From a virus, in the IMG/VR virus record IMGVR_UViG_3300028025_002129, positions 1 through 29,681 of that record: a stretch of 29,681 nt of DNA; one strand, 5' to 3'. The position numbers were made by a program, and so were the translations under genes. Within the stretch, counting starts at the first letter, position 1. Each line of letters begins with the position of its first letter. Below, piece after piece: positions 443 through 29,681 of the stretch. The notes below the pieces were generated by a model. It searched no databases. It saw nothing but the letters and a program-made list of their open reading frames with translations, and had not been told where the DNA came from.

Positions 443-869
443 CGGCGGTGCGATATCCCCAGGCAATGATGAAGGATCGCGCGGCGGCGGCGGAGGCGGC
501 GGTGCAGGAGCTAATGGTAACAATGGAACACTTAGCGACGGCGTTGTGTTTGCAGGCGCGGGCGGCGTAGGTCTAGCAAACTCTATCACAGGCACTTCTA
601 CTTTTTATGGCGGTGGCGGCGGCGGCGCAGTGGTAAGTATTAGAGGCGCTAGCGGCGGCAATGGCGGCGGTGGAGCTACGGGAGTATCCGGCACGGCAAA
701 CACTGGCGGCGGCGGCGGAGCATCAGGTGGCGCAGGAGGTTCAGGCGTATTTATCTTATCTATCCCAACTGCTAATTACACCGGCACAACCACAGGCTCA
801 CCAACAGTTACAACTAGCGGCTCAAATACGATATTGAAATTTACGGCTTCAGGGAGTTACACAGGATGA
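351..869 (+). CDS. Glycine-rich tail fibre/adhesin, C-terminal part (continuation after the G-run)
   Basis: This frame carries on the glycine-rich adhesin after the seven-G run at 388-394. Removing one G joins the two frames as ...GSGG-GNSGTGTAGPP... without losing the pattern. The C-terminal 35 residues (ANYTGTTTGSPTVTTSG, then a T(I/L)KFT-SG ending) closely match the end of the protein at 7882-8718 and resemble the module at the start of the window, so the family is built of repeated Gly-rich and beta segments. The ATG at 351 is probably not a genuine start, because homology-like sequence runs upstream in the other frame. The stop overlaps the next start (ATGA at 866-869). Confidence 0.7.
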   Translation: MAAETVIAARVVRGGGNSGTGTAGPPRQGYNGGAISPGNDEGSRGGGGGGGAGANGNNGTLSDGVVFAGAGGVGLANSITGTSTFYGGGGGGAVVSIRGASGGNGGGGATGVSGTANTGGGGGASGGAGGSGVFILSIPTANYTGTTTGSPTVTTSGSNTILKFTASGSYTG

Positions 870-1276
870 GTTATTTTGCAAGAGTACCCACACTTACAAA
901 TGGCAAAGGCATTGTTGATGATGTGATTGCTGCTGACCAATTGTTTATTGATTCAGGTGCGGTTGGCGACCCATCTATGTGGTGGCAAACATCGTACAAC
1001 ACCCGTGGCAATGTTCATTATGGCCCTGACGGTCAGCCTGATGGCGGCGTGGCGCTTCGCGCAAATTACGCAGGGGTTGGGTACACGCTAGATACAAATG
1101 TTGTTATTCAAAGCGTAGTAGGTGTGTTCTATGCGCCTCAACCATATCCATCATGGGTTTTAGATCCGCAAACATATTTATGGGAAGCACCTGTGCCTTA
1201 TCCGACAGACGGAAAAAATTACGTTTGGGACGAAGCCACGCAATCTTGGGTGCTTGTACCTTACGAAGTTAAATAA
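866..1276 (+). CDS. Hypothetical virion-associated protein with tryptophan/proline repeats
   Basis: 136 residues, starting in an ATGA overlap with the adhesin gene, so it is translationally coupled to it. The N-terminus (MSYFARVPT...VIAADQLFIDSG) and the C-terminal aromatic repeat (YPSWVLD, LWEAPVPYP, YVWDEATQSWV) match a type of small protein I recognise from aquatic myo- and podoviruses, where it is usually called hypothetical or structural. No catalytic motif or membrane segment is visible. Its place beside the adhesin suggests a fibre accessory or virion component; this is inference from position only. Confidence 0.8.
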   Translation: MSYFARVPTLTNGKGIVDDVIAADQLFIDSGAVGDPSMWWQTSYNTRGNVHYGPDGQPDGGVALRANYAGVGYTLDTNVVIQSVVGVFYAPQPYPSWVLDPQTYLWEAPVPYPTDGKNYVWDEATQSWVLVPYEVK

Positions 1277-1289
1277 TATACTAATCGTA

Positions 1290-1306
1290 CTGGTGCGATC
1301 CACCAG
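1290..1306 (+). terminator. Short hairpin before the scaffold gene
   Basis: CTGGTG / CACCAG stem of six pairs with a five-base loop, followed by GGTTTCTT. The T-tract is poor, so it may be a weak terminator or an RNA processing/stability element rather than a full stop. Confidence 0.35.
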
Positions 1307-1325
1307 GGTTTCTTAGGAAACAAAA

Positions 1326-2105
1326 ATGTCAGAAGAAGTAACCTTAGCGGAAGTACCCGCGCCAGAACAGGACGTTACGGCAACACCTGTACCTGAAGTT
1401 TCAGCGCCGGAAGTAGTCGAGAATCAAGTTGAACAGCAAGAGGAAAAGAAGTACACCCAAGCTGAAATCGACGCGATGATCGGTAAACGACTTGCAAGAG
1501 AGCAACGTAAGTGGGAAAGAGATCAGGCGCAACGTGCGGTGCAAGCCCCACAGCCAAGTGCTCCACCCGTACCGGAAGGTTTTGCATCCACTGAAGAGTA
1601 CATCGACGCAGTAGCCGAGTACAAAGCAGCGGAAAAGCTTGCGGCACGCGAAGCACAGAAGCAGCAGTCTGCAATCTTAGAGTCCTACCACGACAAGGAA
1701 GAAGAAGCACGGACGAAGTACGACGACTTTGAACAAGTCGCCTACAACCCCAACCTTCCAATCACTGACGTGATGGCTCAGACCATTCAAGCTTCTGATA
1801 TTGGTCCCGACATGGCTTATCACCTAGGGGCAAATCCGAAAGAAGCTGAGCGGATTTCCAGACTTTCGCCATTCTTACAAGCCAAAGAAATCGGGAAGCT
1901 CGAAGCCAAATTGGCCGCTGATCCTCCCACCAAAAAGACCTCTTCGGCGCCAACGCCTATTAGTCCGGTCACTGCAAGAAGCACGGGGTCACCCTCGTAC
2001 GATACAACCGACCCACGCTCCATCAAGTCGATGAGCACCTCGGATTGGATCGAAGCTGAAAGGCAGCGTCAGATTAAAAAGCAAGAAGCGCTACGTAACC
2101 GCTAA
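1326..2105 (+). CDS. Probable capsid scaffolding protein
   Basis: 259 residues, directly upstream of the coat gene, preceded by TAGGAAAC as ribosome site. The protein is highly charged and predicted mostly helical: an acidic, Pro/Val-rich N-terminus (1-40), the signature YTQAEIDAMIGKRLAREQRKW (about 43-63) seen in many phage scaffold-like proteins, a Glu/Lys/Gln-rich helical middle, a Pro/Ser/Thr linker near 200-225 and a basic C-terminus (QRQIKKQEALRNR), which fits the coat-binding tail of scaffold proteins. Scaffolds guide procapsid assembly and are then lost. The call rests on composition and position rather than a diagnostic active site. A distant relation to P22 gp8 is plausible but unproven. 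Confidence 0.75.
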   Translation: MSEEVTLAEVPAPEQDVTATPVPEVSAPEVVENQVEQQEEKKYTQAEIDAMIGKRLAREQRKWERDQAQRAVQAPQPSAPPVPEGFASTEEYIDAVAEYKAAEKLAAREAQKQQSAILESYHDKEEEARTKYDDFEQVAYNPNLPITDVMAQTIQASDIGPDMAYHLGANPKEAERISRLSPFLQAKEIGKLEAKLAADPPTKKTSSAPTPISPVTARSTGSPSYDTTDPRSIKSMSTSDWIEAERQRQIKKQEALRNR

Positions 2106-2128
2106 CTTACTTTTTTAAAGGAACTACC

Positions 2129-3331
2129 ATGTCAAATAGCTTATTGACCATTGACATGATCACCCGTAAGTCTCTCGAAATCCTCGAGAACAACCTGGTG
2201 CTCACACGTAACGTAAACCGCCAATATGACGACTCCTTTGCTGTTGAAGGCGCCAAAATTGGTTCAACCCTCCGTATCCGCCTGCCCGATCGCGCGCTGG
2301 TGACTGACGGTGCCGCTCTGCAAGTTCAGGCCGACAACGAACAGTTCACAACGCTGACGGTGTCTAGCCAAAAGCATATCGGCGTAAACTTCACGTCTGC
2401 CGAACTTACAATGCAATTGGACGACTTCGCAGAGCGTGTTTTGAAGCCTCGCGTCTCGCAGCTCGCATCTTCGGTTGACGCCGACGTTGCAACTTCGTAC
2501 AAAGGCATCGCCAACACAGTAGGCACTCCAGGTACTACTCCTTCGACTTCTTTGGTTCTGCTCCAAGCTAACCAGAAGCTCAACGAGTTTGCTACACCTA
2601 TGAGCCCACGCTACGCGACTGTTAACCCAGCCGCTAACGCTGGTTTGGTCGAAGGCATGAAGGGCTTGTTTAACCCAACCGGCACTATCAGCCGCCAGTT
2701 CAAAAACGGCATGATGGGTGAAGGCATTTTGGGTCTGGACGAGATCAACATGTCGCAGTCCATTGCTAACCACACGAACGGCGATTGGGGCACAAGCATC
2801 ACTGTGACTTCAACTGTCACGACTGAAGGTCAATCCACCTTGCCAATCAGCTTTACTGGTTCAAGCAAGACATGGAACGTGGGCGACGTATTCACTATCG
2901 CTAGTGTTTTTGCTGTTAACCCACAGACCCGTCAATCGACCGGCAGCCTCCAACAGTTCACCGTAACTGCTGTGGCAACTGGTTCTTCGACTGCTACGCT
3001 GAGCATCAGCCCAGCTCTGTACACCGCTGGAAACGCATTGGCTACTGTTCTTGCATTCCCGCAAGCTGGCGCTGTTGTGACAATGGTTGGTTCGGCTAAC
3101 ACCGGCTACCCACAGAACTTGGTCTACCACAAAGATGCCATTAGCTTTGCTACGGCTGACTTGTTGTTGCCACAAGGCGTTGACATGGCTTCGCGCCAAG
3201 TCCACAACGGTATTTCGTTGCGTATCGTACGTCAGTACGACATCAACAACGACCGTCTGCCTTGCCGTATTGATGTTTTGTATGGCTACGCTGCCATTCG
3301 TCCTATCACTGCGGTTCGTATGTGGGGCTAA
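2129..3331 (+). CDS. Major capsid protein, P22 coat protein (gp5) family
   Basis: 400 residues with ribosome site AAAGGAA. The N-terminus (ITRKSLEILENNLVLTRNVNRQYDD, then KIGSTLRIRLP) and the segment TAELTMQLDDF-like at about 92-102 are characteristic of the P22 coat family, which has an HK97 fold and forms T=7 shells. The central part (about 213-315), rich in Ser/Thr/Val, likely corresponds to an inserted domain. The C-terminal stretch (DMASRQ, LRIVRQYDINNDRLPCRIDVLYGYAAIRP) is also typical. Length is slightly below P22 gp5 (430). A UUCG hairpin follows immediately, consistent with a highly expressed gene whose transcript is partly stopped or protected at its 3' end. Confidence 0.93.
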   Translation: MSNSLLTIDMITRKSLEILENNLVLTRNVNRQYDDSFAVEGAKIGSTLRIRLPDRALVTDGAALQVQADNEQFTTLTVSSQKHIGVNFTSAELTMQLDDFAERVLKPRVSQLASSVDADVATSYKGIANTVGTPGTTPSTSLVLLQANQKLNEFATPMSPRYATVNPAANAGLVEGMKGLFNPTGTISRQFKNGMMGEGILGLDEINMSQSIANHTNGDWGTSITVTSTVTTEGQSTLPISFTGSSKTWNVGDVFTIASVFAVNPQTRQSTGSLQQFTVTAVATGSSTATLSISPALYTAGNALATVLAFPQAGAVVTMVGSANTGYPQNLVYHKDAISFATADLLLPQGVDMASRQVHNGISLRIVRQYDINNDRLPCRIDVLYGYAAIRPITAVRMWG

Positions 3332-3337
3332 ACTAGT

Positions 3338-3353
3338 GGGGGCTTCGGCCCCC
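3338..3353 (+). terminator. UUCG hairpin after the coat gene
   Basis: GGGGGC-TTCG-GCCCCC: six GC pairs closed by the very stable TTCG tetraloop, with ATTTGTAACTTTTTTT downstream. The T-run is 13 bases away, so it could be a partial terminator or an mRNA 3' stabiliser between coat and decoration genes. Confidence 0.65.
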
Positions 3354-3382
3354 ATTTGTAACTTTTTTTAAGGATATTTATC

Positions 3383-3778
3383 ATGGCACTTTCTAATGGC
3401 ACAGGCGGTTATCAAATCGGTGCAGGCGCAACTGACGAAGCAATTATGTTTGTTCAGGGCGCACCTACTGCATTGACAGCCGCAGCAACCGCAACGTCTG
3501 CACAACTCCAAAATGGTCTGTTTACTTTTGTTGGGACTGCTGGCAACTTAACATTGCCAACAGTCGCTTTGTTGGAAGCAGATATGTTGAGTGCACAAAA
3601 AGTCAATTCTGCATTTGATTTCTTTATCATCAACACAGATGATACAGATTCGGTCACTTTGGCTGTCGGCACTGGTTGGACAATTGTTGGAGCGGCTGCG
3701 GTAACTACCGCAACGTCAGCCCATTTCCGCGCGCGCAAGACTGGCGACGGTTCGTGGACTGCATACCGCATTAGCTAA
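3383..3778 (+). CDS. Small virion protein, possible capsid decoration protein
   Basis: 131 residues, preceded by TAAGGATATTTATC. The sequence is Ala/Thr/Val-rich with alternating hydrophobic residues and no charged clusters, as in beta-sandwich surface proteins (TLPTVALLEADML, FDFFIINTDDTDSVTLAVGTGWTIVG). I do not recognise a named family with certainty. It sits between coat and gp4-type genes and is isolated by GC hairpins on both sides, the usual place for head decoration or stabilising proteins. The C-terminus (SAHFRARKTGDGSWTAYRIS) resembles ends of head-fibre-like proteins. Role is inferred. Confidence 0.75.
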   Translation: MALSNGTGGYQIGAGATDEAIMFVQGAPTALTAAATATSAQLQNGLFTFVGTAGNLTLPTVALLEADMLSAQKVNSAFDFFIINTDDTDSVTLAVGTGWTIVGAAAVTTATSAHFRARKTGDGSWTAYRIS

Positions 3779-3787
3779 TGTAACGAC

Positions 3788-3808
3788 CCCGCCCTTCGGG
3801 GCGGGTTT
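3788..3808 (+). terminator. UUCG hairpin terminator
   Basis: CCCGCCC-TTCG-GGGCGGG, seven GC pairs with a TTCG loop, followed by TTT. Ten bases after the stop of the preceding gene. Confidence 0.65.
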
Positions 3809-3822
3809 CATAAGGAAATATT

Positions 3823-4281
3823 ATGCCAAATACCAAAGCAACTGGGGTAGCATTTTTAGACCCTGATTTATCAGGCGGTACACTTGACAACACACCTATC
3901 GGCGCTGTGACACCTAATACTTTTGTTGGTACGACAGTGTACGCAACTTCTGAGATTGGTTACTCCGCCGCTGCACAAGGTGCGGTAACTCAATTGACAT
4001 CAAAATCTACTGCCGTGACGCTTAACACGTCAGCCGGTCAGATTACGATGAACGCAGCCTCTTTGGCAGCAACTACTAACGTCACATTTACGCTGACTAA
4101 CAGTTTGTTGTCGGCTAAAGACGTGTTGATTTTAAACGTCACTAACGGTACATCGGCTGCGTACAACTGCTGGGTATCTAGCATGGGTGCAGGGGCGGCG
4201 ACTATTACGTTGCGTAACATCAGCGCAAGCCCTTTGGCTGAAGCTGTTGTGATCAACTTTGCAATTATTCATTGCGCTTAA
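3823..4281 (+). CDS. Virion protein, head decoration/head-fibre-like
   Basis: 152 residues, ribosome site TAAGGAAATATT. The central and C-terminal part (QGAVTQLTSKSTAVTLNTSAGQ, AATTNVTFTLTNSLLSAKDVLILNV, ATITLRNISASPLAEAVVINFAI) is a recurrent beta-rich module that I have seen after coat genes of many phages, generally annotated as structural or head-fibre protein. It repeats the compositional style of the gene before it, suggesting both coat the shell surface. No enzyme motif is visible. Function as decoration is inferred from family resemblance and position. Confidence 0.75.
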   Translation: MPNTKATGVAFLDPDLSGGTLDNTPIGAVTPNTFVGTTVYATSEIGYSAAAQGAVTQLTSKSTAVTLNTSAGQITMNAASLAATTNVTFTLTNSLLSAKDVLILNVTNGTSAAYNCWVSSMGAGAATITLRNISASPLAEAVVINFAIIHCA

Positions 4282-4287
4282 TAAGGC

Positions 4288-4303
4288 GGGGGCCTTGGCC
4301 CCC
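4288..4303 (+). terminator. GC hairpin after decoration gene
   Basis: GGGGGC-CTTG-GCCCCC stem of six pairs. It lacks a T-tract and lies only nine bases before the next ATG, so it may occlude the ribosome site or act on mRNA stability rather than terminate. Confidence 0.5.
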
Positions 4304-4311
4304 AACTCAAA

Positions 4312-4476
4312 ATGAACATATACCTAGAACATCCTTTGCACGGTCAAAAAGTTGCCACAATGGAACTTGAAGCCGAAGAAGATGAAAAAAATGGTTGGGT
4401 GCGTTATACTTTGGATACGCCTGAAGATGCGGAGCCGGTAAACGAGCTAAAACGTAAACGTAAAACTTCGGAGTAG
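4312..4476 (+). CDS. Small conserved phage protein between capsid and gp4-type genes
   Basis: 54 residues (MNIYLEHPLHGQKVATMELE...). The pattern HPxHGxKVA...E.E.DE.NGWVRYTxDTP...EPVNEL followed by a basic tail (KRKRK) is familiar from phages with P22-like tail genes, at this same position. It starts just after a GC hairpin with no obvious Shine-Dalgarno, and ends two bases before the next start. No known function. Its strongly acidic middle and basic end suggest a small adaptor or assembly protein; this is inference. Confidence 0.75.
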   Translation: MNIYLEHPLHGQKVATMELEAEEDEKNGWVRYTLDTPEDAEPVNELKRKRKTSE

Positions 4477-4478
4477 CC

Positions 4479-5192
4479 ATGAGCACCACAGCCGGCGATC
4501 AGATAAATGGGGCGCTGCGCCTAATCGGCCAATTAGCTGAGGCTGAAGTGCCCTCAGCCGCTACGTCTGAGGATGCGCTGGCAACACTTAACCAGATGAT
4601 TGACTCATGGAATACTGAGCGGTTGTCGGTGTTTTGTACGCAAGACCAAATCTTTTCTTGGCTGCCAGGGTTTATGACCCGCACGCTAGGACCTACGGGA
4701 GATTTCGTTGGAAACCGCCCGATTCTTATTGACGATTCAACTTATTTTCGCGATCCTTCTTCTGGCATTTCATTCGGCATTAAGCTGATCAACCAGCAAC
4801 AGTATGACGGTATTGCGGTCAAAACGGTCACGTCAACTTATCCACAAGTCATGTTTGTAAATATGACTTACCCCAACATCACAATGACCGTTTATCCGGT
4901 GCCAACTAAGGTACTGGAGTGGCACTTTGTGTCGGTTCAAGAGCTTACAACACCTGCGCTACTGAGCACGCCCTTGGCGTTCCCACCAGGCTATCTCAGA
5001 GCCTTTAAGTACAACCTTGCGTGTGAGCTTGCCCCCGAGTTTGGTGTTGAGCCCTCGCCCACTGTGCAGCGCGTTGCGATGACGTCTAAGCGCAATCTCA
5101 AGCGCATCAACAATCCTGACGACATCATGTCCTTGCCATATTCTATTGTGGCCACACGTCAGCGCTTTAACATCTTTGCGGGTAATTATTAA
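4479..5192 (+). CDS. Tail accessory factor, P22 gp4 family (head-to-tail adaptor)
   Basis: 237 residues. The N-terminus (QINGALRLIGQLAEAEVPSAATSEDALATLNQMIDSWNTERL) is the hallmark of the P22 gp4 / head-completion adaptor family: a four-helix bundle that binds the portal ring and extends it. Family proteins plug the portal after packaging and provide the seat for gp10 and tailspikes. P22 gp4 also has muramidase activity; no such active site can be confirmed here, and this protein is longer than P22 gp4 (166), with an added C-terminal beta part. The stop shares one base with the next start (TAATG). Confidence 0.88.
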   Translation: MSTTAGDQINGALRLIGQLAEAEVPSAATSEDALATLNQMIDSWNTERLSVFCTQDQIFSWLPGFMTRTLGPTGDFVGNRPILIDDSTYFRDPSSGISFGIKLINQQQYDGIAVKTVTSTYPQVMFVNMTYPNITMTVYPVPTKVLEWHFVSVQELTTPALLSTPLAFPPGYLRAFKYNLACELAPEFGVEPSPTVQRVAMTSKRNLKRINNPDDIMSLPYSIVATRQRFNIFAGNY

Positions 5193-6712
5193 TGCAGTCG
5201 CCTATCCTCGGATCAGCTTATGTGGCACGCAGCGTTAACGCTGCCGATAGCCGCATGGTTAATTTGTTTCCCGAGGTTATACCCGAAGGCGGTCATACCC
5301 CAGCGTTTCTGAACCGTGCCCCAGGTCTAAAGCTTGAAGTTGCCGTTGGCACGGGGCCGGTGCGCGGGCTGTGGACGTTTGGTGCTTACGCATACGTTGC
5401 ATCAGGGAATACCCTATATAGGTTAGATTCTGAATACAACATTACAACGCTTGGCACTTTGGCAAATGATGGCCCAGTGTCAATGGCCGACGATGGCACG
5501 CATTTGTTTGTAGCGTGTAACGGCCCAAGCTTTGTCTACAACGCTACAACCGATGCGTTTGGCGAAATCACCGACCCAGACTTTCCTGGCGCGCTGACGG
5601 TGTCTTACCTTGGCGGCTACTTTGTGTTTATTGAGCCAGACAGCCAACGCGTGTGGGTAACAGAGTTACTTGACCCAACATCTATTGACCCGCTTGACTT
5701 TGCAAGCGCTGAAGGCAGCCCAGACGGATTGGTGTCATCCATTACCGACCATTCTGAAATTTGGTTGTTTGGCACAAACTCGGTTGAGGTTTGGTACAAC
5801 GCGGGTACGGCAGACTTTCCTTTACAGCGCATTCAAGGTGCGTATAACGAGATTGGATGCGCGGCTACCTATTCGGTTGCCAAGCTTGATAATGGCCTGT
5901 TTTGGCTTGGTGCTGACGCCCGTGGGCGGGGTATTGTCTACCGCGCTAACGGTTATACCGGAACGCGCATCAGCACGCACGCAATTGAGTGGCAGATTCA
6001 GCAATATGGCGACATCTCTGACGCTATCGCGTACACGTACCAGCAAGACGGCCATGCGTTTTACGTGCTAACTTTCCCAACCGCGGGTGCAACTTGGGTG
6101 TACGACGTGGCCACACAAGCGTGGCATGAGCGCGCAAGCTTTACCAATGGCGACTTTGGTCGTCATCGCAGCAATTGTCAGATGGCGTTTAACAGCGAAA
6201 TCATCGTAGGCGATTATCAAAACGGCAACTTGTATTCGTTTGATTTAGAAGTTTACGCAGACGGCCCCCGCGTACAGAAATGGTTGCGCTCATGGCGTGC
6301 ATTGCCTACCGGCACAAACAACCTAAACCGTACAGCGCAGCACAGTCTGCAACTTGATTGCGAATCCGGTGTAGGCGCTGTGGGCGTGACTGAAGTGCCT
6401 GGGCATATTTACTTGACCCCGTTGACTATCGGGGACTTAGGCATTGAGGATGAGATTGTTATTGTCAACTCAATTGACCTATATGTTGAGCCACAAGTTA
6501 TGTTGCGCTGGTCCGATGACGGTGGCCATACGTGGTCTAACGAACATTGGCAGTCAATGGGCACCAAAGGCGGTTACGGCACCCGTGTCTTTTGGCGACG
6601 CCTTGGCATGACGCTTAAATTGCGTGATCGTGTTTATGAGATTTCAGGCACTGATCCAGTTAAGATTGCGATTATGGGTGCTGAACTACACATGAGTGCT
6701 ACAAATGGCTAA
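5192..6712 (+). CDS. Packaged DNA stabilisation protein, P22 gp10 family (tail hub)
   Basis: 506 residues, beginning at the ATG that overlaps the upstream stop. Signature features are the N-terminus SPILGSAYVARSVNAADSRMVNLFPEV, repeated propeller-like blades (for example GLWTFGAYAYVASGNTLYRL, PVSMADDGTHLFVACNG, DHSEIWLFGTNSVEVWYN) and the C-terminal RWSDDGGHTWSNEHWQSMGTKG segment. P22 gp10 forms the hexameric hub below gp4, closes the DNA channel and attaches tailspikes and needle. Length is close to P22 gp10 (472). Gene order gp4-gp10-fibre adaptor supports the assignment. Confidence 0.9.
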   Translation: MQSPILGSAYVARSVNAADSRMVNLFPEVIPEGGHTPAFLNRAPGLKLEVAVGTGPVRGLWTFGAYAYVASGNTLYRLDSEYNITTLGTLANDGPVSMADDGTHLFVACNGPSFVYNATTDAFGEITDPDFPGALTVSYLGGYFVFIEPDSQRVWVTELLDPTSIDPLDFASAEGSPDGLVSSITDHSEIWLFGTNSVEVWYNAGTADFPLQRIQGAYNEIGCAATYSVAKLDNGLFWLGADARGRGIVYRANGYTGTRISTHAIEWQIQQYGDISDAIAYTYQQDGHAFYVLTFPTAGATWVYDVATQAWHERASFTNGDFGRHRSNCQMAFNSEIIVGDYQNGNLYSFDLEVYADGPRVQKWLRSWRALPTGTNNLNRTAQHSLQLDCESGVGAVGVTEVPGHIYLTPLTIGDLGIEDEIVIVNSIDLYVEPQVMLRWSDDGGHTWSNEHWQSMGTKGGYGTRVFWRRLGMTLKLRDRVYEISGTDPVKIAIMGAELHMSATNG

Positions 6713-19339: not shown

Positions 19340-19528
19340 ATGAACACACCCGCTTTCCCCACTTGGTCTGCTAAGGACGTCGTCCAAGGCATGACACTAC
19401 GCGATTACTTTGCCGCCGCCGCTTTGCAAGGCATTCTCTCAACAAACCCTAGTTACTTCCCCTCCGAGATTGTTGACGTCGCGTATGATTACGCTGACCT
19501 AATGATGAGGAAACACAATGCTGCATAG
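19340..19528 (+). CDS. Small conserved phage protein (GMTLRDYFAAAAL)
   Basis: 62 residues, with a good ribosome site (CAGGAGACTACACT). The motif GMTLRDYFAAAALQGIL with a later AYDYADLMMRKH is a frequent small protein in phage early or replication regions, function unknown. It overlaps the DUF2800 nuclease gene by 11 bases and is the first rightward gene behind the divergent promoter. Confidence 0.82.
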   Translation: MNTPAFPTWSAKDVVQGMTLRDYFAAAALQGILSTNPSYFPSEIVDVAYDYADLMMRKHNAA

Positions 19529-20609
19529 TTCAATCGTAGGCGGCTCGACCGCCAAACGCGTGATGGCGTGCCCAGGCTCGGTTAACCTGTGCGCTAAGAT
19601 GCCACCCAAGCCGTCTAGCGTACACGCTGACCGTGGGACGCTATTGCATGACGCGATTGCCATGCTCTTAGATGGTAAGGTTGAGAGCGTAATCGGTATG
19701 GAATACAACGGCATCATACTTACGCAGGAGCTCTACGATGAGAAAATTGCTGTCGCATTTGAAAAGTTGGACGAGATTGATCCTGACAAGCGTATGGAAT
19801 ATGTTGTGGAAAGCCGCGTTGGGTTTGGCGACTTATTGCGTGGGGTGTTTGGTTCTGCTGATCTGCTTGGTCGGATTGGTAGTCGGGCTATTGTTTTGGA
19901 TTGGAAGTTTGGTGATGGTGTGGTGGTTGATGCAGTAGAGAACGCGCAGGGGATGTTCTACTCAGCCGCCGCCATGCGTACGCCCGAGACGCAATGGGTG
20001 TTTAACAGCGCAACAGAAATCGAAATCATCATTGTGCAACCCCCTATGATGCGCCGCTGGGTCACAACCCCCGAGCGCATTGCGAAATTTGAGCGTGATC
20101 TGGTATTAGCTGTCAAAGCATCGCAGCGCCCCAAAGCAGACTTCAACGCGGGCGATCATTGTCGGTGGTGCGCGGCCAAGCCCGTGTGCCCCAAGATGAC
20201 AGGTGAAGTTGATCGCTTTATGAAGACAAGCTTGCAGACAATTGACGCAACTCAGATTGGTCATTACTTGCAACAAGCCGATCAGATTGAAGACTTTATT
20301 AAGTCTGTGCGTGAGATGGCGTTTACCATGCTTGAGAACGATGTCCCAGTGTCTGGCTACAAGTTGGTTGCCAAGCGTGGCACACGTCAATGGGCTAACG
20401 AAGACGACGCGATAAAATTTTTAGGTGACAAAGCTTTTGAAAGTAAGCTAATATCTGTCGCTCAGGCCGAGAAGTTGGTCGGCAAAAAGAATTTCCCGCA
20501 GGAACTAGCTGTATCGGTTTCATCGGGCAATACGCTGGCAAACGAGGATGATCCTCGCCCAGCAATCTTGAACCTCTCAAAGGTTCTATCTAAACTTAAG
20601 GTAATCTAA
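19518..20609 (+). CDS. RecB-like PD-(D/E)xK exonuclease, DUF2800 family
   Basis: 363 residues. Conserved SxxKRVMACPGSVNLC at the N-terminus, RGTLLHDAIA (about 39-48), nuclease core with D115 (SADLL), D128-W-K130 (VLDWKFGDG) and QGMFYSAA, and a C-terminal cysteine triplet C215, C218, C224 (CRWCAAKPVC). Together with C18 these four cysteines are placed as in AddB/Cas4-type nucleases that hold an iron-sulfur cluster. It is followed by the probable ssDNA-binding protein, the standard DUF2800-DUF2815 neighbourhood in phages, which suggests a recombination or end-processing role. Confidence 0.9.
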   Translation: MLHSSIVGGSTAKRVMACPGSVNLCAKMPPKPSSVHADRGTLLHDAIAMLLDGKVESVIGMEYNGIILTQELYDEKIAVAFEKLDEIDPDKRMEYVVESRVGFGDLLRGVFGSADLLGRIGSRAIVLDWKFGDGVVVDAVENAQGMFYSAAAMRTPETQWVFNSATEIEIIIVQPPMMRRWVTTPERIAKFERDLVLAVKASQRPKADFNAGDHCRWCAAKPVCPKMTGEVDRFMKTSLQTIDATQIGHYLQQADQIEDFIKSVREMAFTMLENDVPVSGYKLVAKRGTRQWANEDDAIKFLGDKAFESKLISVAQAEKLVGKKNFPQELAVSVSSGNTLANEDDPRPAILNLSKVLSKLKVI

Positions 20610-24153: not shown

Positions 24154-26457
24154 ATGAACTTTTTTGAGTATATAACAAACTTAGCCCCAGAGGGCGAAAC
24201 CGTACTTTTTGTGCGTCAAAAGCCACAAATAAAAGACGGCGGTTACCAATTCCACGCCGATGGTGCGATGAAGTGCACTTGGCCAGCCTCACTGCCCGAG
24301 AAGTACAACGGCAAAGGTGCGTGGTACGCCAATACGGCTATGTTTATCGTGAGCCGTTTTAAAGATGGGCACCCGTCTGCGTCCATCGCCAATTGCGAGC
24401 GTGTAGGCTTCCTAGTGTTAGACGATGTCGGCACCAAGTCCAAGCTGCCCCCGATTGAGCCCACTTGGAAGATCGAAACCTCCCCCGACAATTACCAGTG
24501 GGGGTATACCTTTGCGTTAGATGATCACCCGACCGTTGATGAGTTCACCGCCGCTATCAAGGCGATAGCGGAAGCGGGTTACACCGATCCTGGTGCGACC
24601 AACGCTGTGCGTAACTTCCGGCTGCCTAAATCAGTCAACCTGAAACCTGGGCGCGACAATTTTGCCGCACGTTTAACCGAGTTTCACCCCGAGCGTGAGT
24701 TTAGCCTTGCCCAGATATGCGAGGCGTTAGATGTCACCCCCGCCCCGATTGAAAGCACGCGCTTCACGCCTATTCGTGTAGCAGACGATGGTCAGGACGA
24801 TGTAGTTGTATGGTTAAGCGCAAACGGTCTAGTCTTGTCACGCCCCAACCCCGAGGGCTGGATGGGGGTAGTGTGCCCTAACAGTGCCGAGCATACCGAT
24901 GGCAACCCCGAGGGTCGTTACAACCCTTCCATGCGTGCATTTTGTTGTCTGCATTCGCATTGCTTAGACTTAGATTCGCACACCTTTCTTGATTGGGTTG
25001 CCGACCAAGGCGGCCCTGTGCACGCTCCTGGGCTCAGGGATGAATTGCTTGCCTCCATGATGGATGGCGCGTTGTCTAAATTAAAGCCTACCGAAGCGTT
25101 CCCCGACCGTGCTGCCGAGATTGTCGCAGAGGTTGATTTAAAACAATTAGGCCGCGTTGAGCGTGCGGGTTGGTTTACCCGTTTTGCGTACATTCAAGAC
25201 GAAGAGGCGTTTTTTGATATGCAAGAGCGGCGCGAGATCAGCCGTAGTGCGTTTAATGCGTTGTTCCGCCATATAGACTGCAAGAGTGTGCACAACCTTA
25301 AACGCCGCGTTGAAGCGTCCGTGTCGTTTGATGAAAACCGACAGAACCGAGGCGCGCCCGTTTTGGTCGGAATTACTTACGCTGCGGGCGATGATGTGCT
25401 TGTAAGCCGTGATGGCGATGTGTACGGTAACCGTTGGCGCAACGCGCGGCCTACGCCCGTGTCTGCCAAGACAGACATTACCCCTTGGCTTGAGCATTGC
25501 GAGCGGCTAGTGCCCAATACGCAAGAACGCGAACACTTGTTTAACATCATGGCGCACAAGGTGCAGTTCCCTAAGATCAAGATCAACCACGCAGTGCTGC
25601 ATGGCGGCGATCAAGGGTGCGGCAAAGATACCATGTGGGCACCGATGCTTTGGGCGGTTTGCGGTAACGATTTACGCAACCGAGGGCTGTTAGACAATGA
25701 CACTATGTCGAGTCAGTTCGACTATGCTTTAGAGTCCGAAATTTTAATTTTGAACGAATTGAAAGAGCCCGATGCACGGGAGAGGCGCGCGCTTGCCAAC
25801 CGATTAAAACCAATCATTGCCGCCCCGCCTGAGATGCTATCCATTAACCGCAAGGGCTTACACCCTTACGACATGGTCAACCGCATTTTTGTATTGGCGT
25901 TCTCGAACGACCCCGTGCCGATCACGCTCGACTCACAAGACCGCCGATGGTTTTGCATTTGGTCGCACGCTTCTAGAATGCTTCCTGAGGATGCCCAAAG
26001 CCTTTGGAAGTGGTACAAGTCGGGCGGCTTTGATGCAATTGCCCAATGGTTCTACGCACGCGACTTAAGCGCGTTTAATCCGGCAGCAACCCCTGCATGG
26101 ACGGACTTTAAACATAACCTGATTGAACATGGCATGAGTACCGCCGAATCCTACCTTGTGGAGATGTTGCGTGGGCGCATGGGTGAGTTTGAGCGTGGCG
26201 TTATAGCGTCACCGTTTCACGCACTATGCGAGCGTTTAGCCAACACGGCACCTGGAGGGGTGAGAATACCCCAACCCGCGCTCTTACACGCGCTTAAAGA
26301 GGCCGGATGGGAGGATTGTGGACGCATCATGTCAACTGAACTCACCACGCGCAAGCACATATACGCCGCGCCTGATATTGCGCGGTCATACTCCAAGTCG
26401 GACTTGCGGCGCATGGTTGAAGTACCCGCGCCGCCTAAGATAGTAAAAACGGCCTAG
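24154..26457 (+). CDS. Primase-helicase (prim-pol like N-terminus, D5/VapE-type helicase)
   Basis: 767 residues, ribosome site AAGGAG. The N-terminal 210 residues resemble the archaeo-eukaryotic primase fold (FLVLDDVG with D90/D91, WGYTFALDD, ATNAVRNFRLPKSVNLKPG). A cysteine/histidine-rich segment (CPNSAEHTDG...FCCLHSHC) follows near 245-275. The helicase has Walker A GGDQGCGKDT (484-493, K491), Walker B-like LILNEL (E535) and an arginine/sensor region NDPVPITLDSQDRRWFCIW; this is the DUF5906 class of superfamily 3 helicases. It primes and unwinds DNA at the fork for the family A polymerase. Confidence 0.88.
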   Translation: MNFFEYITNLAPEGETVLFVRQKPQIKDGGYQFHADGAMKCTWPASLPEKYNGKGAWYANTAMFIVSRFKDGHPSASIANCERVGFLVLDDVGTKSKLPPIEPTWKIETSPDNYQWGYTFALDDHPTVDEFTAAIKAIAEAGYTDPGATNAVRNFRLPKSVNLKPGRDNFAARLTEFHPEREFSLAQICEALDVTPAPIESTRFTPIRVADDGQDDVVVWLSANGLVLSRPNPEGWMGVVCPNSAEHTDGNPEGRYNPSMRAFCCLHSHCLDLDSHTFLDWVADQGGPVHAPGLRDELLASMMDGALSKLKPTEAFPDRAAEIVAEVDLKQLGRVERAGWFTRFAYIQDEEAFFDMQERREISRSAFNALFRHIDCKSVHNLKRRVEASVSFDENRQNRGAPVLVGITYAAGDDVLVSRDGDVYGNRWRNARPTPVSAKTDITPWLEHCERLVPNTQEREHLFNIMAHKVQFPKIKINHAVLHGGDQGCGKDTMWAPMLWAVCGNDLRNRGLLDNDTMSSQFDYALESEILILNELKEPDARERRALANRLKPIIAAPPEMLSINRKGLHPYDMVNRIFVLAFSNDPVPITLDSQDRRWFCIWSHASRMLPEDAQSLWKWYKSGGFDAIAQWFYARDLSAFNPAATPAWTDFKHNLIEHGMSTAESYLVEMLRGRMGEFERGVIASPFHALCERLANTAPGGVRIPQPALLHALKEAGWEDCGRIMSTELTTRKHIYAAPDIARSYSKSDLRRMVEVPAPPKIVKTA

Positions 26458-26468
26458 AAGGCCGTTTT
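26446..26468. terminator. Bidirectional terminator between convergent blocks
   Basis: AAAACGGCC (26446-26454) pairs perfectly with GGCCGTTTT (26460-26468), loop TAGAA. Both strands end in four T, and the primase-helicase stop codon TAG is in the loop. It serves the rightward replication genes and the leftward small-gene block. Confidence 0.8.
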
Positions 26469-26469
26469 A

Positions 26470-26529
26470 TTAGAGGTCGAAAGTTAGAATCATAAGTAAA
26501 ACTACTGCCGCTATTATCAGGGACGCCAT
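26470..26529 (-). CDS. Possible 19-residue membrane peptide
   Basis: MASLIIAAVVLLMILTFDL: a single hydrophobic helix with no charged residue before the C-terminal Asp. It overlaps the end of the preceding gene by 13 bases and ends just before the bidirectional terminator. Short membrane peptides at the ends of phage operons are known, yet at this size translation cannot be shown from sequence. A similar peptide lies at 28688-28753. Confidence 0.4.
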   Translation of the reverse strand: MASLIIAAVVLLMILTFDL

Positions 26530-26744
26530 GCGCTTAGTACCTCCCCAAATAGGGGGTGCACATTGTCCCAGTACGCGCCAATGTCTTTAGGGTACAGTGG
26601 GCGCAGCGTGCGGCTTTCGTCCATGCTACGGGCATATATATAGCCGCTTTTCTGATCGTACGAATCAACGGTATAGGCGCGGTTCTTTACATGCACAATA
26701 TCGCCGTGTTGGACTGGCGCGCCAGTAGTGTACTTAATCGGCAT
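26517..26744 (-). CDS. Small beta-rich protein of unknown function
   Basis: 75 residues (MPIKYTTGAPVQHGDIVHVKNRAYTVDSYDQKSGYIYARSMDESRTLRP...). The first 45 residues have the strand pattern of an SH3-like barrel (GDIVHVKNRAYTVDSYD, YIYARSM), and YPKDIGAYWDN resembles small phage proteins of unknown role. It begins inside the end of the 58-residue gene upstream. No enzymatic motif. Confidence 0.7.
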   Translation of the reverse strand: MPIKYTTGAPVQHGDIVHVKNRAYTVDSYDQKSGYIYARSMDESRTLRPLYPKDIGAYWDNVHPLFGEVLSAWRP

Positions 26745-26910
26745 AGTGTTCCCCTAATTCTTCGATGTCGGTTATCTCGCGCTCGTGAAATTCAAGGTCT
26801 GAATATTGCATAGCGTCAAACTGATCGCAAGCGGCGTCAGAATCAACCGCGACAATCTCAAGCGTGACTCGAATATATCCCGTTATTTTAAAGGCGTGTG
26901 GTTTGTTCAT
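26734..26910 (-). CDS. Small acidic protein
   Basis: 58 residues (MNKPHAFKITGYIRVTLEIVAVDSDAACDQFDAM...). It starts in the ATGA overlap of the repeated GAGGTGACAGC junction and ends with many acidic residues (YSDLEFHEREITDIEELGEHYAD). The N-terminal KITGYIRVTLEIVAVDSDAA could be a beta-beta-alpha unit of DpnD/PcfM type. Function unknown. Confidence 0.65.
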   Translation of the reverse strand: MNKPHAFKITGYIRVTLEIVAVDSDAACDQFDAMQYSDLEFHEREITDIEELGEHYAD

Positions 26911-27068
26911 GCTGTCACCTCAAGTTGTAATTTTAAAACCGCCATTGCTTCGGCGAATGTATCCCAACAATTGTTTCCGTTATCATCATCAAGGTATTCA
27001 TCCTCAAACAGAACCATGAACCCGTTTGATGTTTCCAGTACATCAATACATAAAATAGTCGTTTTCAT
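26907..27068 (-). CDS. Small acidic protein of the junction-linked cassette
   Basis: 53 residues from the ATG at 27068 (MKTTILCIDVLETSNGFMVLFEDEYLDDDNGNNCWD...EVTA). It ends with the junction-encoded EVTA and begins in the preceding junction. The longer open frame upstream reads through the neighbouring gene and is rejected. Net charge is strongly negative (EDEYLDDDNG). It could be a small beta-alpha fold; no family is recognised. Confidence 0.65.
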   Translation of the reverse strand: MKTTILCIDVLETSNGFMVLFEDEYLDDDNGNNCWDTFAEAMAVLKLQLEVTA

Positions 27069-27229
27069 GCTGTCACCTCTTCTGTAGATAGAATACTGTT
27101 GTCCGCATAGCCGTCCGTTCCGCCGTCCCATTCATCCCAAGCAGCATCTTGGGCTTCGTCCGCGTTTTCGGCTTCGATGATAATTTCTTTGTAACTAATT
27201 GACTCGATAATCACTTTATAGGTTTTCAT
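27065..27229 (-). CDS. DpnD/PcfM-like small acidic protein
   Basis: 54 residues (MKTYKVIIESISYKEIIIEAENADEAQDAAWDEWDGG...EVTA). The arrangement YKVxIExxxxxxIxIEAENxDEAxxxA is that of the short DpnD/PcfM-like family found on phages and mobile elements, function unknown. Fourteen acidic against three basic residues. Starts and ends in GAGGTGACAGC-ATGA junctions. Confidence 0.65.
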   Translation of the reverse strand: MKTYKVIIESISYKEIIIEAENADEAQDAAWDEWDGGTDGYADNSILSTEEVTA

Positions 27230-27465
27230 GCTGTCACCTCTTGTTCATCCAGTAATCGTGTAACTGCGCTTACAAAATTTTCCATAATGTGTATCACATC
27301 ACAATCTTCAAACGGCTCCCACGCGGTTACTTTGGGTTCGCCGTCAGGGTACCGCGTGTCTTCGATGTACCACGCGACAATCTCGTCATAACTAGCGTCT
27401 GGTGGGTAATCGGATAAGCATTGACCGATTACAAAATCCTGCGCTTTTTCTAGATTTGTTTTCAT
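27226..27465 (-). CDS. Acidic small protein, paralogue of the 28277-28513 product
   Basis: 79 residues. It aligns along its length with the 78-residue product at 28277-28513: L-x-x-A-x-x-F at the N-terminus, YPPDASYDEI against YPDGKTYAQI, and a final W-x-x-x-E...D-x-I...LL-x-EVT. Rich in Asp and Glu with aromatic residues (WYIEDTRYPDGEP, WEPFEDCDVIHIMENF). Both genes are flanked by GAGGTGACA junctions, suggesting duplication of the cassette. No known domain. Confidence 0.65.
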   Translation of the reverse strand: MKTNLEKAQDFVIGQCLSDYPPDASYDEIVAWYIEDTRYPDGEPKVTAWEPFEDCDVIHIMENFVSAVTRLLDEQEVTA

Positions 27466-27719
27466 GCTGTCACCTTTGAGTTGTCAAAACAGAATGAGTA
27501 GCCTTTGCCATCCGCGCTGTCACCGTAGCGCATGTCTGACAAATCCCAGTCTAGGTCATGCTTTGCGATCAAGGCTTTGACCGCCTCAAAGTGCACCATC
27601 TCATAAGACAGCGCATGGGGAAAGGGAATCGTGGCGGTCAAACCGCCCCATGTGTAGGCTTTAATACGCGAGCCTTTAAAATTAGTTGCGGGAAGATATT
27701 TGGTGTGAATAGCTATCAT
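27462..27719 (-). CDS. Small protein, first gene of the downstream junction cassette
   Basis: 85 residues, ribosome site AAAGGTAC. The core RIKAYTWGGLTATIPFPHALSYEMVHFEAVKALIAKHDL is conserved-looking; I know similar short proteins in phages of proteobacteria (a strand-rich front and a helix that ends in KHDLDW). It ends KVTA through the repeated junction. A TAAACTAAACT leader precedes it at 27735-27745. Function unknown. Confidence 0.7.
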   Translation of the reverse strand: MIAIHTKYLPATNFKGSRIKAYTWGGLTATIPFPHALSYEMVHFEAVKALIAKHDLDWDLSDMRYGDSADGKGYSFCFDNSKVTA

Positions 27720-27759
27720 TTTAAAGTACCTTTAAGTTTAGTTTAGTGAAACCTGGGGG

Positions 27760-28089
27760 TCATACAAATTCTGAATCGTGGTAGCCCTGCGCGCGCGCCA
27801 TACCTGTAAAGACATCGGCGTATTGCCCGTACACTTCTGGCCTATCCCAAAACCCTGCGCCGTGACCGTTACGGGTCAGCCATAGATCGTGGCCTACTTG
27901 TTCGGCTGAGTATTGGCGTAAATCAATTTCTAGCGTGGCACACGCATTCTCAAAGTTAAGACAAGCCTCGTAAGCGTCCGCTTTGAATTGTGTAGAGAAT
28001 ACTTCGTCTTCGCTTGCTTCTTCGCCATCTGTGAACTCGGCGGCCTCAAGATAGGCGTCTGTCATTGTTTCTAGAAAATATCTGCTCAT
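27760..28089 (-). CDS. Acidic phage protein with GHDLWLTRNGHGAGFWDR motif
   Basis: 109 residues. The motif AEQVGHDLWLTRNGHGAGFWDRPE is a highly conserved hallmark of a small-protein family common on phages and conjugative elements; function is unknown. The N-terminal 60 residues are very acidic helical sequence (TDGEEASEDEVFS). Followed by a 40-bp gap before the next gene. Overlaps the preceding stop by one base. Confidence 0.8.
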   Translation of the reverse strand: MSRYFLETMTDAYLEAAEFTDGEEASEDEVFSTQFKADAYEACLNFENACATLEIDLRQYSAEQVGHDLWLTRNGHGAGFWDRPEVYGQYADVFTGMARAQGYHDSEFV

Positions 28090-28280
28090 TATTCAACCCT
28101 CAACACAAAATGATCACCACTTGGATGGCCGGATTGCCAAGACTGGCCGACCTTGAGCGCACTAATTGCTTTAATTTCGTCCGGCTCATACCCTGTGTCT
28201 TCGTGAAAAAAATCAAGCGTATGGCTCACAATATGCTCTTCGCCATACCCCGCGCCCCAATAACATACGAATTTCTTCAT
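28089..28280 (-). CDS. Small hypothetical protein
   Basis: 63 residues (MKKFVCYWGAGYGEEHIVSHTLDFFHED...). It starts inside a junction (GAGGTGACAAA-ATGA) and ends in an ordinary stop. The GYEPDEIKAISALKVGQSWQSGHPSGDHFVLRV segment looks like a compact beta fold with the SGDHFVLRVE strand at the end, a type I have seen in small phage proteins. No function known. Confidence 0.68.
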   Translation of the reverse strand: MKKFVCYWGAGYGEEHIVSHTLDFFHEDTGYEPDEIKAISALKVGQSWQSGHPSGDHFVLRVE

Positions 28281-28513
28281 TTTGTCACCTCTGCTAATAA
28301 CTCGTTTATTTGATCGCGTAGTGAATCTTGAAAATCTATGATGTCACCATCGCTCCAATACTCAAGCGACCCCCATACGTCTATTTTGTTCCAACCCTTC
28401 GCGTATTCGCGCTCAAGTAATTTTTGAATCTGAGCGTACGTTTTACCGTCAGGGTAGCAAGCAAGAGTATTGTCAAGCGCAAACACTTCAGCGCGGGATA
28501 GGGTTGGGTTCAT
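28277..28513 (-). CDS. Small hypothetical protein, paralogue of the 27226-27465 product
   Basis: 78 residues (MNPTLSRAEVFALDNTLACYPDGKTYAQIQKLLEREY...EVTK). Helical, mixed charge. Shares the length, the YPxxxxY(A/D)(Q/E)I block and the W...E...D-I...LL ending with its cassette relative. Starts and ends in GAGGTGACA junctions. Confidence 0.68.
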   Translation of the reverse strand: MNPTLSRAEVFALDNTLACYPDGKTYAQIQKLLEREYAKGWNKIDVWGSLEYWSDGDIIDFQDSLRDQINELLAEVTK

Positions 28514-28677
28514 TCTGTCACCTCAGATAGTTGAATTAAAAGGTCTGCTAAGTCTGATACGCTCATATCCTCATACTCGGCTAAGTTCTCTGTTTCTAAT
28601 AGCGTGTAGGCGCGTTGTGGCACTCGCAAGCCCACTTCGCGCATAGCGTTAAATTCTTTGATTAGATCGGCTTTCAT
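28510..28677 (-). CDS. Small helical protein, junction cassette
   Basis: 55 residues from the ATG at 28677 with AAGGGG before it (MKADLIKEFNAMREVGLRVPQRAYTLLETENLAEYEDMSVSDLADLLIQLSEVTE). The longer frame upstream overlaps the membrane peptide gene and is rejected. It ends EVTE through the junction with the next gene. Acidic, fully helical. No family recognised. Confidence 0.65.
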   Translation of the reverse strand: MKADLIKEFNAMREVGLRVPQRAYTLLETENLAEYEDMSVSDLADLLIQLSEVTE

Positions 28678-28687
28678 GGTTAACCCC

Positions 28688-28753
28688 TTAAAGAAAACAA
28701 GCGGCCACAATTGCCGCGCCAAATAAAACAATTGCTACGAGATCGTCAATCAT
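28688..28753 (-). CDS. Possible 21-residue membrane/leader peptide
   Basis: MIDDLVAIVLFGAAIVAACFL: one hydrophobic helix behind two aspartates. GGAG lies ten bases before the ATG, and the next gene's ribosome site starts right after its stop. Its coding sequence contains TGTGGCCGCTT, complementary to the upstream leader, so it may act as a regulatory leader peptide as well as a membrane peptide. Confidence 0.5.
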   Translation of the reverse strand: MIDDLVAIVLFGAAIVAACFL

Positions 28754-28789
28754 GCTGTAGTGCTCCAAAGTGTGGCCGCTTGCGCGGCC
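28699..28789 (-). promoter_or_regulatory. Leader with alternative hairpins
   Basis: In the leftward transcript GGCCGC-GCAA-GCGGCC (28774-28789) can form a local hairpin. The downstream half of this hairpin is also part of AAGCGGCCACA, which pairs perfectly over 11 bp with TGTGGCCGCTT at 28699-28709, inside the small peptide gene. The two structures exclude each other and the second encloses the GGAG ribosome site. Attenuator-like behaviour is inferred. Confidence 0.4.
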
Positions 28790-28797
28790 GTTTAAGT

Positions 28798-28986
28798 TTA
28801 GATAATGAAGTGAGGGTTGGAAGTCAACTCATACGCGAGCGCTAATTTCAAAAGCGCATCTTGTTGCAAGGGTTTGCGCGCGGCGCGGTACAGGCCGGAA
28901 ATCACACGCGCGGCGCTATCGTTGTTGCCGCTGTTAGCGTGTTTGAGGGCTACTGCTACAATCTTGAATTGCTGTTTGTTTAGCAT
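28798..28986 (-). CDS. Small hypothetical protein, first gene of the leftward accessory block
   Basis: 62 residues (MLNKQQFKIVAVALKHANSGNNDSAARVISGLYRAARKPL...). GGAGCTCAAAAA precedes the ATG. Mostly helical, with two helical repeats rich in Ala (IVAVALKHANSGN, RVISGLYRAAR, ALLKLALAYELT). No family is recognised. Its promoter should lie in 28987-29100, where the dyad TGTAAA-CAATTGT-TTTACA is found. Confidence 0.65.
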   Translation of the reverse strand: MLNKQQFKIVAVALKHANSGNNDSAARVISGLYRAARKPLQQDALLKLALAYELTSNPHFII

Positions 28987-29021
28987 TTTTTGAGCTCCAA
29001 TTAGTTAACCAACAGAGACAG

Positions 29022-29040
29022 TGTAAACAATTGTTTTACA
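29022..29040. promoter_or_regulatory. Dyad operator candidate upstream of leftward block
   Basis: TGTAAA-CAATTGT-TTTACA, six-base arms with a seven-base centre, 36 bp upstream of the first leftward gene. The position fits an operator over the leftward promoter; the promoter elements themselves (minus-strand TTGCAT and TACACT, 17 bp apart) are weak. Confidence 0.4.
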
Positions 29041-29236
29041 GTATGCAAGCTAAACGGCAATAAATATTTCTATCGGTTGGCCAGGTTGGATAGGGAAAAG
29101 CTATTGGAGTTTAGCTATAGATCGGTAAGGGTTTAGTAGCGGGATTAGTCATGGGGAATGGGGCGGGACGCCACTGGAATCAGGCCTCTTAGTCATTTTA
29201 GCTATTGGATTGGTATTTCTTTAATAAAATAAAAAG

Positions 29237-29256
29237 TACTGTATATATGTACAGTA
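29237..29256. promoter_or_regulatory. LexA/SOS box candidate
   Basis: TACTGTATATATGTACAGTA contains CTGT-N8-ACAG and differs from the enterobacterial LexA consensus at one position. TATACT (29255-29260) overlaps its right edge as a possible -10 in either direction because the sequence AGTATACT is palindromic. Confidence 0.75.
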
Positions 29257-29298
29257 TACTGTAACGGTAGTGGAACGCACGCGGTTTGGCGCGCGACT

Positions 29299-29493
29299 TT
29301 TCCGGCATGGCTAAAATGGCTAAAATGACTATTTCTTGCCATTTTGGCAACCTTTCCCTGTGGGAAATTTCCTCACTAAGTCTTAGTTTCTTAGCTACTT
29401 TAGTTAAAGGATTCCTTTAACTAAACTAGCTAAACACTCACTAAGTCTTAGCCCAAGTTTTGGGTTGGCAACCAACTTTCCGGCATGGCTAAA
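29299..29493 (+). repeat. Direct repeat TTTCCGGCATGGCTAAA
   Basis: A 17-bp identical sequence at 29299-29315 and 29477-29493. The first copy continues into ATGGCTAAA (29307-29315 and 29316-29324 in tandem). Both lead into the GCTAAARTGACTA motif. Confidence 0.8.
29372..29451. repeat. 43-bp palindrome flanked by 15-bp direct repeats
   Basis: Arms 29391-29410 and 29414-29433 (TTAGCTA-C-TTTAGTTAAAGG and its complement) match in 19 of 20 positions with a three-base loop ATT. CTCACTAAGTCTTAG stands on both sides, at 29372-29386 and 29437-29451, four and three bases away. No T-tract follows, so it is unlikely to be a terminator. Confidence 0.85.
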
Positions 29494-29541
29494 GTGACTA
29501 ATGTTGCAATGCACAATGTTGCACTGCAACAATCCTAAGAT

Positions 29542-29585
29542 TTACACAGCCAGGTTACACTAAGGATTACACAGCCAGGTTACAC
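29542..29585 (+). repeat. Two 19-bp tandem repeats (iteron-like)
   Basis: TTACACAGCCAGGTTACAC occurs at 29542-29560 and 29567-29585, a period of 25 bp, each followed by (T/C)AAG. Upstream AATGTTGCA is repeated at 29500 and 29515, and TGTTGCA-C-TGCAACA forms a hairpin at 29517-29531. Confidence 0.8.
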
Positions 29586-29681
29586 CAAGCAAACCTTAGC
29601 CCAGGTAGCAGGAGGCAAAAGGCTAAAAAATCCTTGATGGGGGGGGTAGGGCGAAGAGCATATTGTGAGCCATACGCTTGA

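Follow-up and report, generated by a model that had tools for sequence, protein, structure and literature searches.

The window analyzed here, the whole 29,681-base stretch of viral record IMGVR_UViG_3300028025_002129 (linear by classification), carries structural genes, a helicase, a PHROG 69 exonuclease, a DNA polymerase, and a VapE-type primase. The closest annotated record that we found, Podoviridae sp. ctNMl277, whose annotation includes a P22-like portal, is 66% identical over part of the polymerase-primase region. A block of small genes (26517-28986) lies on the minus strand, convergent with the primase gene; as one part of the overall explanation graded below, we read it as probably the accessory mini-gene region of a podophage-like virus. 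Our subject is the 15-nucleotide (nt) stop/start joint found at six gene boundaries of this block, hereafter the EVT junction, which holds the upstream C terminus, a ribosome site, the stop, and the next start. Genes are designated by the first residues of their products (Table 1) and related loci by L numbers.

A repeated junction between small genes

A first-pass annotation of the sequence had proposed that six gene boundaries share one motif and that unrelated small proteins end in (E/K)VTx, and this description is confirmed: (A/G)AGGTGACANNATGA marks six minus-strand gene boundaries (26907-28524) and is absent from the rest of the window. Exact matches to RAGGTGACANNATG are confined to positions 26908, 27066, 27227, 27463, 28278, and 28511. 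The sequence AGGTGACA occurs seven times against 0.51 expected, a count reached in 0 of 100 shuffles; six copies are on the minus strand between 26913 and 28523, and the seventh (20423, plus strand) lies inside the open reading frame (ORF) 19518-20609, away from any boundary.

All six EVT junctions are ATGA stop/start overlaps between ORFs, with the 7-nt Shine-Dalgarno (SD) match GAGGTGA placed within the overlap, in the last codons of the upstream gene, and seven bases separating GAGG from the ATG. All seven bases of GAGGTGA can pair with the 3' end of bacterial 16S rRNA. The six upstream products end in SEVTE, AEVTK, SKVTA, QEVTA, EEVTA, and LEVTA. The TGA of an ATGA overlap starts at the second base of the ATG, which leaves a single reading frame for the junction and obliges the upstream protein to end in (E/K)VTx; this is enough to explain the shared ends. 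At three junctions in a row the common block is longer, (A/G)AGGTGACAGCATGAAAAC, running through ATGAAAAC, and three products consequently begin with MKT.

The motif moderately exceeds what a ribosome site needs. It is not the general ribosome-binding site (RBS) of this phage, as none of 23 other genes in the window uses it, and codon bias was rejected as its cause (in core genes, ACA makes up 29% of Thr codons, and GAG and GTG make up 40% and 27% of their respective boxes). The filler CA follows GAGGTGA at all six junctions here, compared with 8 of 32 genuine single GAGGTGA-NNNN-ATGA overlaps sampled regardless of filler (the sample required ATGAAAA; two of the eight CA sites come from tandem loci, and dropping them sharpens the contrast), so a working ribosome site can do without the full motif, as the first-pass annotation had argued. 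When tandem junctions 130 to 160 bases apart were scanned, CA stood at both in 22 viral contigs and was followed by a non-C filler in 2, although the single-site frequencies (8 CA, 19 non-C) predict that CA-then-non-C tandems should be the commoner kind (Fisher P = 9e-6, or 4e-4 with related contigs collapsed by eye, 14 versus 2). Among the relatives, near-identical 12-nt junctions between unrelated genes within one phage form 15 pairs, against 1.5 by label shuffling. The repetition of junctions is real but confined to particular phages.

Shared ancestry of the genes does not account for their shared ends. MKTNL and MNPTL, recognized as paralogues at first pass, are homologous (global alignment Z = 8.4 with EVT tails removed, a score reached in 0 of 2,000 shuffles), although they are only ~29% identical and BLASTP alone gives E = 0.025. 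Every other pair among the eight cassette proteins tested has Z < 3, and paralogy of all cassette genes was rejected as the cause of the shared ends, there being this one homologous pair among those tested. The duplication once proposed for the pair cannot be called recent, since its divergence is too great to show this; an old duplication would fit this distance, and so would two separate acquisitions from one family. A search for relatives of MKTNL in bacterial genomes found none. Homologues of one cassette gene carry differing tails across phages, and alignments of MIAIH with homologues in isolated phages end at residues 59 to 82 (mostly 76 to 78) and never cover the last three. A protein function for the EVT tail is unlikely: homologues lack it, and in a low-confidence AF2 model, itself too weak to support a fold search, the tail falls outside the final helix.

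Gene turnover at junctions among relatives

The primase was used to fetch 57 relatives, and the last cassette gene to fetch 19 loci. Among the 57, exact EVT junctions occur only in L002 and L004-L008, in addition to the window. Gene content and order vary across relatives between conserved end genes, a variation anticipated by the first-pass annotation. The window reads MIAIH-MKTNL-MKTYK-MKTTI-MNKPH-MPIKY, L004 reads MKIYRAN-MRVNEM (the MKTTI homologue)-MKTNL-MLKKYR-MSIKY, and L005 reads MKIYRAN-MKTYDI-MRVNEM-MNKPQ-MPIKY; L003 differs again and uses its own junction, GGAGCGCGCAGAATGA, twice.

One-gene insertions, losses, and swaps of neighbors map to junctions at base resolution. DNA similarity between the window and L004 stops at 26906, and similarity between the window and L191, L192, and L195 starts at 26910. 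L004 and L005 have near-identical flanks and differ by one gene exactly between the SD-bearing junctions AAAGGTGATTAACATG and GAGGTGACAGCATG, a difference that alters the tail of the upstream protein from IKGD to IKEVTA. L336 equals L324 plus one gene, with GAGGTGACAGC on both sides of the extra gene; L331 equals L326 plus one gene; and L082 and L339 share a gene that is 99% identical at the nucleotide level behind different upstream genes. Shuffling at stop-start overlaps is thus supported.

The junction itself normally travels with the upstream gene. In 41 swaps within the window's family, in which the downstream gene is common and the upstream gene different (drawn from loci picked by homology, with those picked by the motif itself set aside), identity is 0.83 after the ATG and, over the seven preceding bases, 0.36 and 0.31. 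The SD core retains 0.65 identity, compared with 0.37 for unrelated junctions, and identity farther upstream is 0.31 to 0.35, near background. This collapse at the ATG indicates that the junction, being the coding end of the upstream gene, moves with it, and that SD function alone is preserved.

Table 1. Genes and EVT junctions of the small-gene block
Feature	Coordinates	Strand	Remarks
MLNKQ, 62 aa	28798..28986	-	First gene of the block; also in L002 and L008; without EVT link
MKADL, 55 aa	28510..28677	-	C terminus SEVTE; L201 homologue ends SEL
EVT junction GAGGTGACAGAATGA	28510..28524	-	3' end of 28510-28677, SD, stop and start of 28277-28513
MNPTL, 78 aa	28277..28513	-	27226-27465 is a distant paralogue
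EVT junction GAGGTGACAAAATGA	28277..28291	-	Joins 28277-28513 to 28089-28280
MKKFV, 63 aa	28089..28280	-	Without family match
MSRYF, 109 aa	27760..28089	-	PHROG 1915-like; start has a non-EVT RBS
MIAIH, 85 aa	27462..27719	-	PHROG 3199-like
EVT junction AAGGTGACAGCATGA	27462..27476	-	Joins 27462-27719 to 27226-27465
MKTNL, 79 aa	27226..27465	-	Homologues in L003, L004, and L334 have different tails and neighbors
EVT junction GAGGTGACAGCATGA	27226..27240	-	Joins 27226-27465 to 27065-27229
MKTYK, 54 aa	27065..27229	-	DpnD/PcfM-like (Pfam E = 1.1e-5)
EVT junction GAGGTGACAGCATGA	27065..27079	-	Joins 27065-27229 to 26907-27068
MKTTI, 53 aa	26907..27068	-	L004: 94.7% nt identity, then a different gene
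EVT junction GAGGTGACAGCATGA	26907..26921	-	Joins 26907-27068 to 26734-26910; breakpoint vs L004 and vs L191/L192/L195
MNKPH, 58 aa	26734..26910	-	Match to L191/L192/L195 begins at the MNKPH ATG
MPIKY, 75 aa	26517..26744	-	Last gene of the block; conserved

The same slot holds larger genes of ~215 to 255 aa (MIKLSVTSKLDGIRSWSLQ..., MTKYSCVNQYQVHLTPKST...) with cysteine clusters, among mini-genes, in L191, L192, L194-L197, L199-L201, L203, L001, L002, and L008. Four cassette proteins searched in a phage collection gave no matches, and a defense-gene identity of the cassette genes was rejected, as PADLOC gave no credible match. No sigma-70-like promoter was found in 26300-29681 of the window. 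Between the convergent primase and cassette, AAAACGGCCTAGAAGGCCGTTTT (26445-26472) is probably a bidirectional terminator, one absent from the results of the consensus scan.

Other repeated ribosome sites and junctions came to light along the way (coordinates for L003, L020, L322, L345, and L348 are those of the reverse complement). L020, a relative of the window phage, has a ~40-bp leader with AGGACCACGACC abutting the ATG before six nearby genes (682-3460), resembling the Start-Associated Sequences of actinophages. L322 has another phage-specific repeated ribosome site, TGGAGGTAACTTATG, before five genes (218-4920), and the close relative L003 has a different house junction, TGAGGAGCGCGCAGAATGA, at two consecutive junctions (3787-4140), where two unrelated proteins end in TEERAE. 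L345 packs five GAGGTGA-NNNN-ATGA junctions of mixed filler into ~800 bases (4563-5391), with tails EVKE, EVTE, EVTE, EVKE, and EVMK. In L348 (Shewanella benthica; 3681-3990), a mini-ORF (MISATGLLLIILAYVGLLY...EVTA) recurs as tandem near-copies, with GAGGTGACAGCATGA bounding each, in front of a longer ORF that begins alike. In L347 (3412-3590), a Gallionella metagenome-assembled genome, GAGGTGACAGCATGAA flanks an insert on both sides in a bacterial gene row; the translation of the insert (RHSGAGRSPAE...ISACAGMT) resembles an interspersed repeat, as if target-site duplication had copied a coupled junction.

Origins of the repeated junction

We place a probability of roughly 60% on a reading in which coupled mini-genes with ATGA overlaps turn over at their junctions and the repetition arises by junction copying. 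We infer that the mini-genes are probably translationally coupled through these overlaps with the strong SD GAGGTGA; the (E/K)VTx C terminus is a by-product of the frame fixed by ATGA. Genes are gained, lost, and swapped with breakpoints at junctions, probably because only those leave all genes intact and coupled, and the junction usually moves with the upstream gene. In some phages, this one included, a single junction sequence has multiplied beyond ribosome-site need; most simply, gene insertions and losses may copy the adjacent junction. Several results weigh against this reading. Breakpoints fall at 44 of 73 EVT junctions and at 34 of 57 other SD-plus-ATGA junctions within 3 kb (P = 1), in a coarse test based on all-against-all alignment in which related contigs are counted repeatedly and control junctions come from simple ORF rules. 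Most swaps in the window's family exchange the junction as well. The gene that L331 has beyond L326 carries an EVT junction on the left side only. Eight of the 15 within-phage pairs of near-identical junctions are the window's own and four belong to L020, whose repeat is an intergenic leader and not a true overlap.

The same data bear on the mechanism favored at first pass, homology-driven cassette exchange, in which the repeated junction is a recombination site and crossover between copies inserts, deletes, and duplicates genes. Such exchange would account for the one-gene difference between L324 and L336 with a junction on both sides, for the L004/L005 gene, whose neighbors differ on either side and which in each phage has EVT junctions at its two ends, for the gene shared by L082 and L339, and for the tandem homogeneity of junctions. 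Breakpoints are not in excess over those at other junctions, however, so EVT junctions are unsupported as breakpoint hot spots; the 41 family swaps mostly involve unlike junctions; the L331 insertion has the EVT junction on one side; and 11 to 19 bp is short for general recombination. The proposed shuffling at short homologies thus stands as turnover at junctions and falls as preferred exchange at the EVT junction, which is usually replaced together with the upstream gene. We regard homology-driven exchange as unlikely, and the 9-mer as a driving recombination site is unproven and not favored on present tests. A broader form of the idea is just as doubtful: GAGGTGACANNATGA may be a gene-pool standard, such that mini-genes of unrelated phages have one and the same translated ribosome-site junction at either end, short-homology recombination adds, removes, or swaps them with translation left intact, and the junction is duplicated by every insertion.

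Still less likely is pure translational convergence, in which GAGGTGACANN is the host's best termination-reinitiation site and was reached independently at each junction. GAGGTGA does match the anti-SD over 7 nt with good spacing, no single filler is commoner than CA, and 104 of 124 exact 15-mer sites in viral contigs sit between two overlapping open frames. Against these points, other coupled or close genes of the block and the rest of the phage have quite different sites, the C that follows GAGGTGA terminates SD pairing instead of lengthening it, and the filler is free elsewhere yet homogeneous in tandem. A bound regulatory signal, by which a phage or host factor recognizes the repeat and regulates translation of the block, is highly improbable. 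An RBS-centered repeat before unrelated genes, conserved beyond pairing need, does recall the Start-Associated Sequences of PMC3203893, but the repeat is not conserved across the phage family, about half of the block's starts are without it, and no extended inverted repeat was seen by eye.

Known gene chains, boundaries, and start-associated repeats

A question of long standing is how phages can gain and shed accessory genes while keeping operons intact; conserved boundaries are one answer, and random joining followed by selection is its rival. The region and its relatives supply near-identical phage pairs that differ by exactly one gene, placed at a junction serving simultaneously as coding end, ribosome site, and start. 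They further distinguish two phenomena that are usually mixed: genes turn over generally at ATGA overlaps here, whereas the repeated use of one junction within a phage is a distinct and real excess for which a cause is still needed.

Conserved boundary sequences are among the closest known parallels. PMC3029335 discusses the proposal that short conserved boundary sequences mediate phage mosaicism and reports a common 18-residue C-terminal segment of Island3 genes 67 and 68 at such a boundary. The present case likewise has a short common sequence at boundaries flanking exchanged genes, and breakpoints do coincide with it (44 of 73 EVT sites, with base-level cases). It differs in that the piece is 11 to 19 bp centered on a ribosome site and breakpoints are no commoner there than at other junctions.

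According to PMC8022706, which cites Kroger and Hobom (1982), the nin regions of all lambdoid phages contain chains of ATGA overlaps; the "chain of interlinked genes" of lambda and P22 consists of tightly packed, mostly dispensable early genes that are linked by ATGA and vary among related phages. The block is alike in its overlapping TGA/ATG with the SD inside the upstream gene (6 of 6 EVT junctions) and in its variable gene content among relatives. Unlike the nin region, its genes are unrelated to nin genes (Pfam and PHROG scans gave no nin-family match), it stands opposite and convergent to the primase gene instead of between replication and Q genes, and its six EVT junctions repeat one exact 9-mer.

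Start-Associated Sequences (SAS, with the related designation ESAS), known from Cluster K mycobacteriophages and Cluster EF Microbacterium phages, are RBS-containing repeats conserved beyond RBS need (PMC3203893, PMC7302621). Here, too, a short RBS repeat conserved beyond base pairing stands before genes of different families and is phage-group specific. Unlike SAS, it lies inside the upstream coding sequence at the ATGA overlap and is hence translated, and it is absent from most of the family, so that the expected retention across a phage group is lacking. Inspection by eye showed no shared sequence 5' of the junctions and no sign of the extended upstream inverted repeat that about half of SAS have. 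We assign the region to neither the nin nor the SAS family because it lacks one defining feature of each; it combines both, as an SAS-like repeat inside the coding overlap of a nin-like chain.

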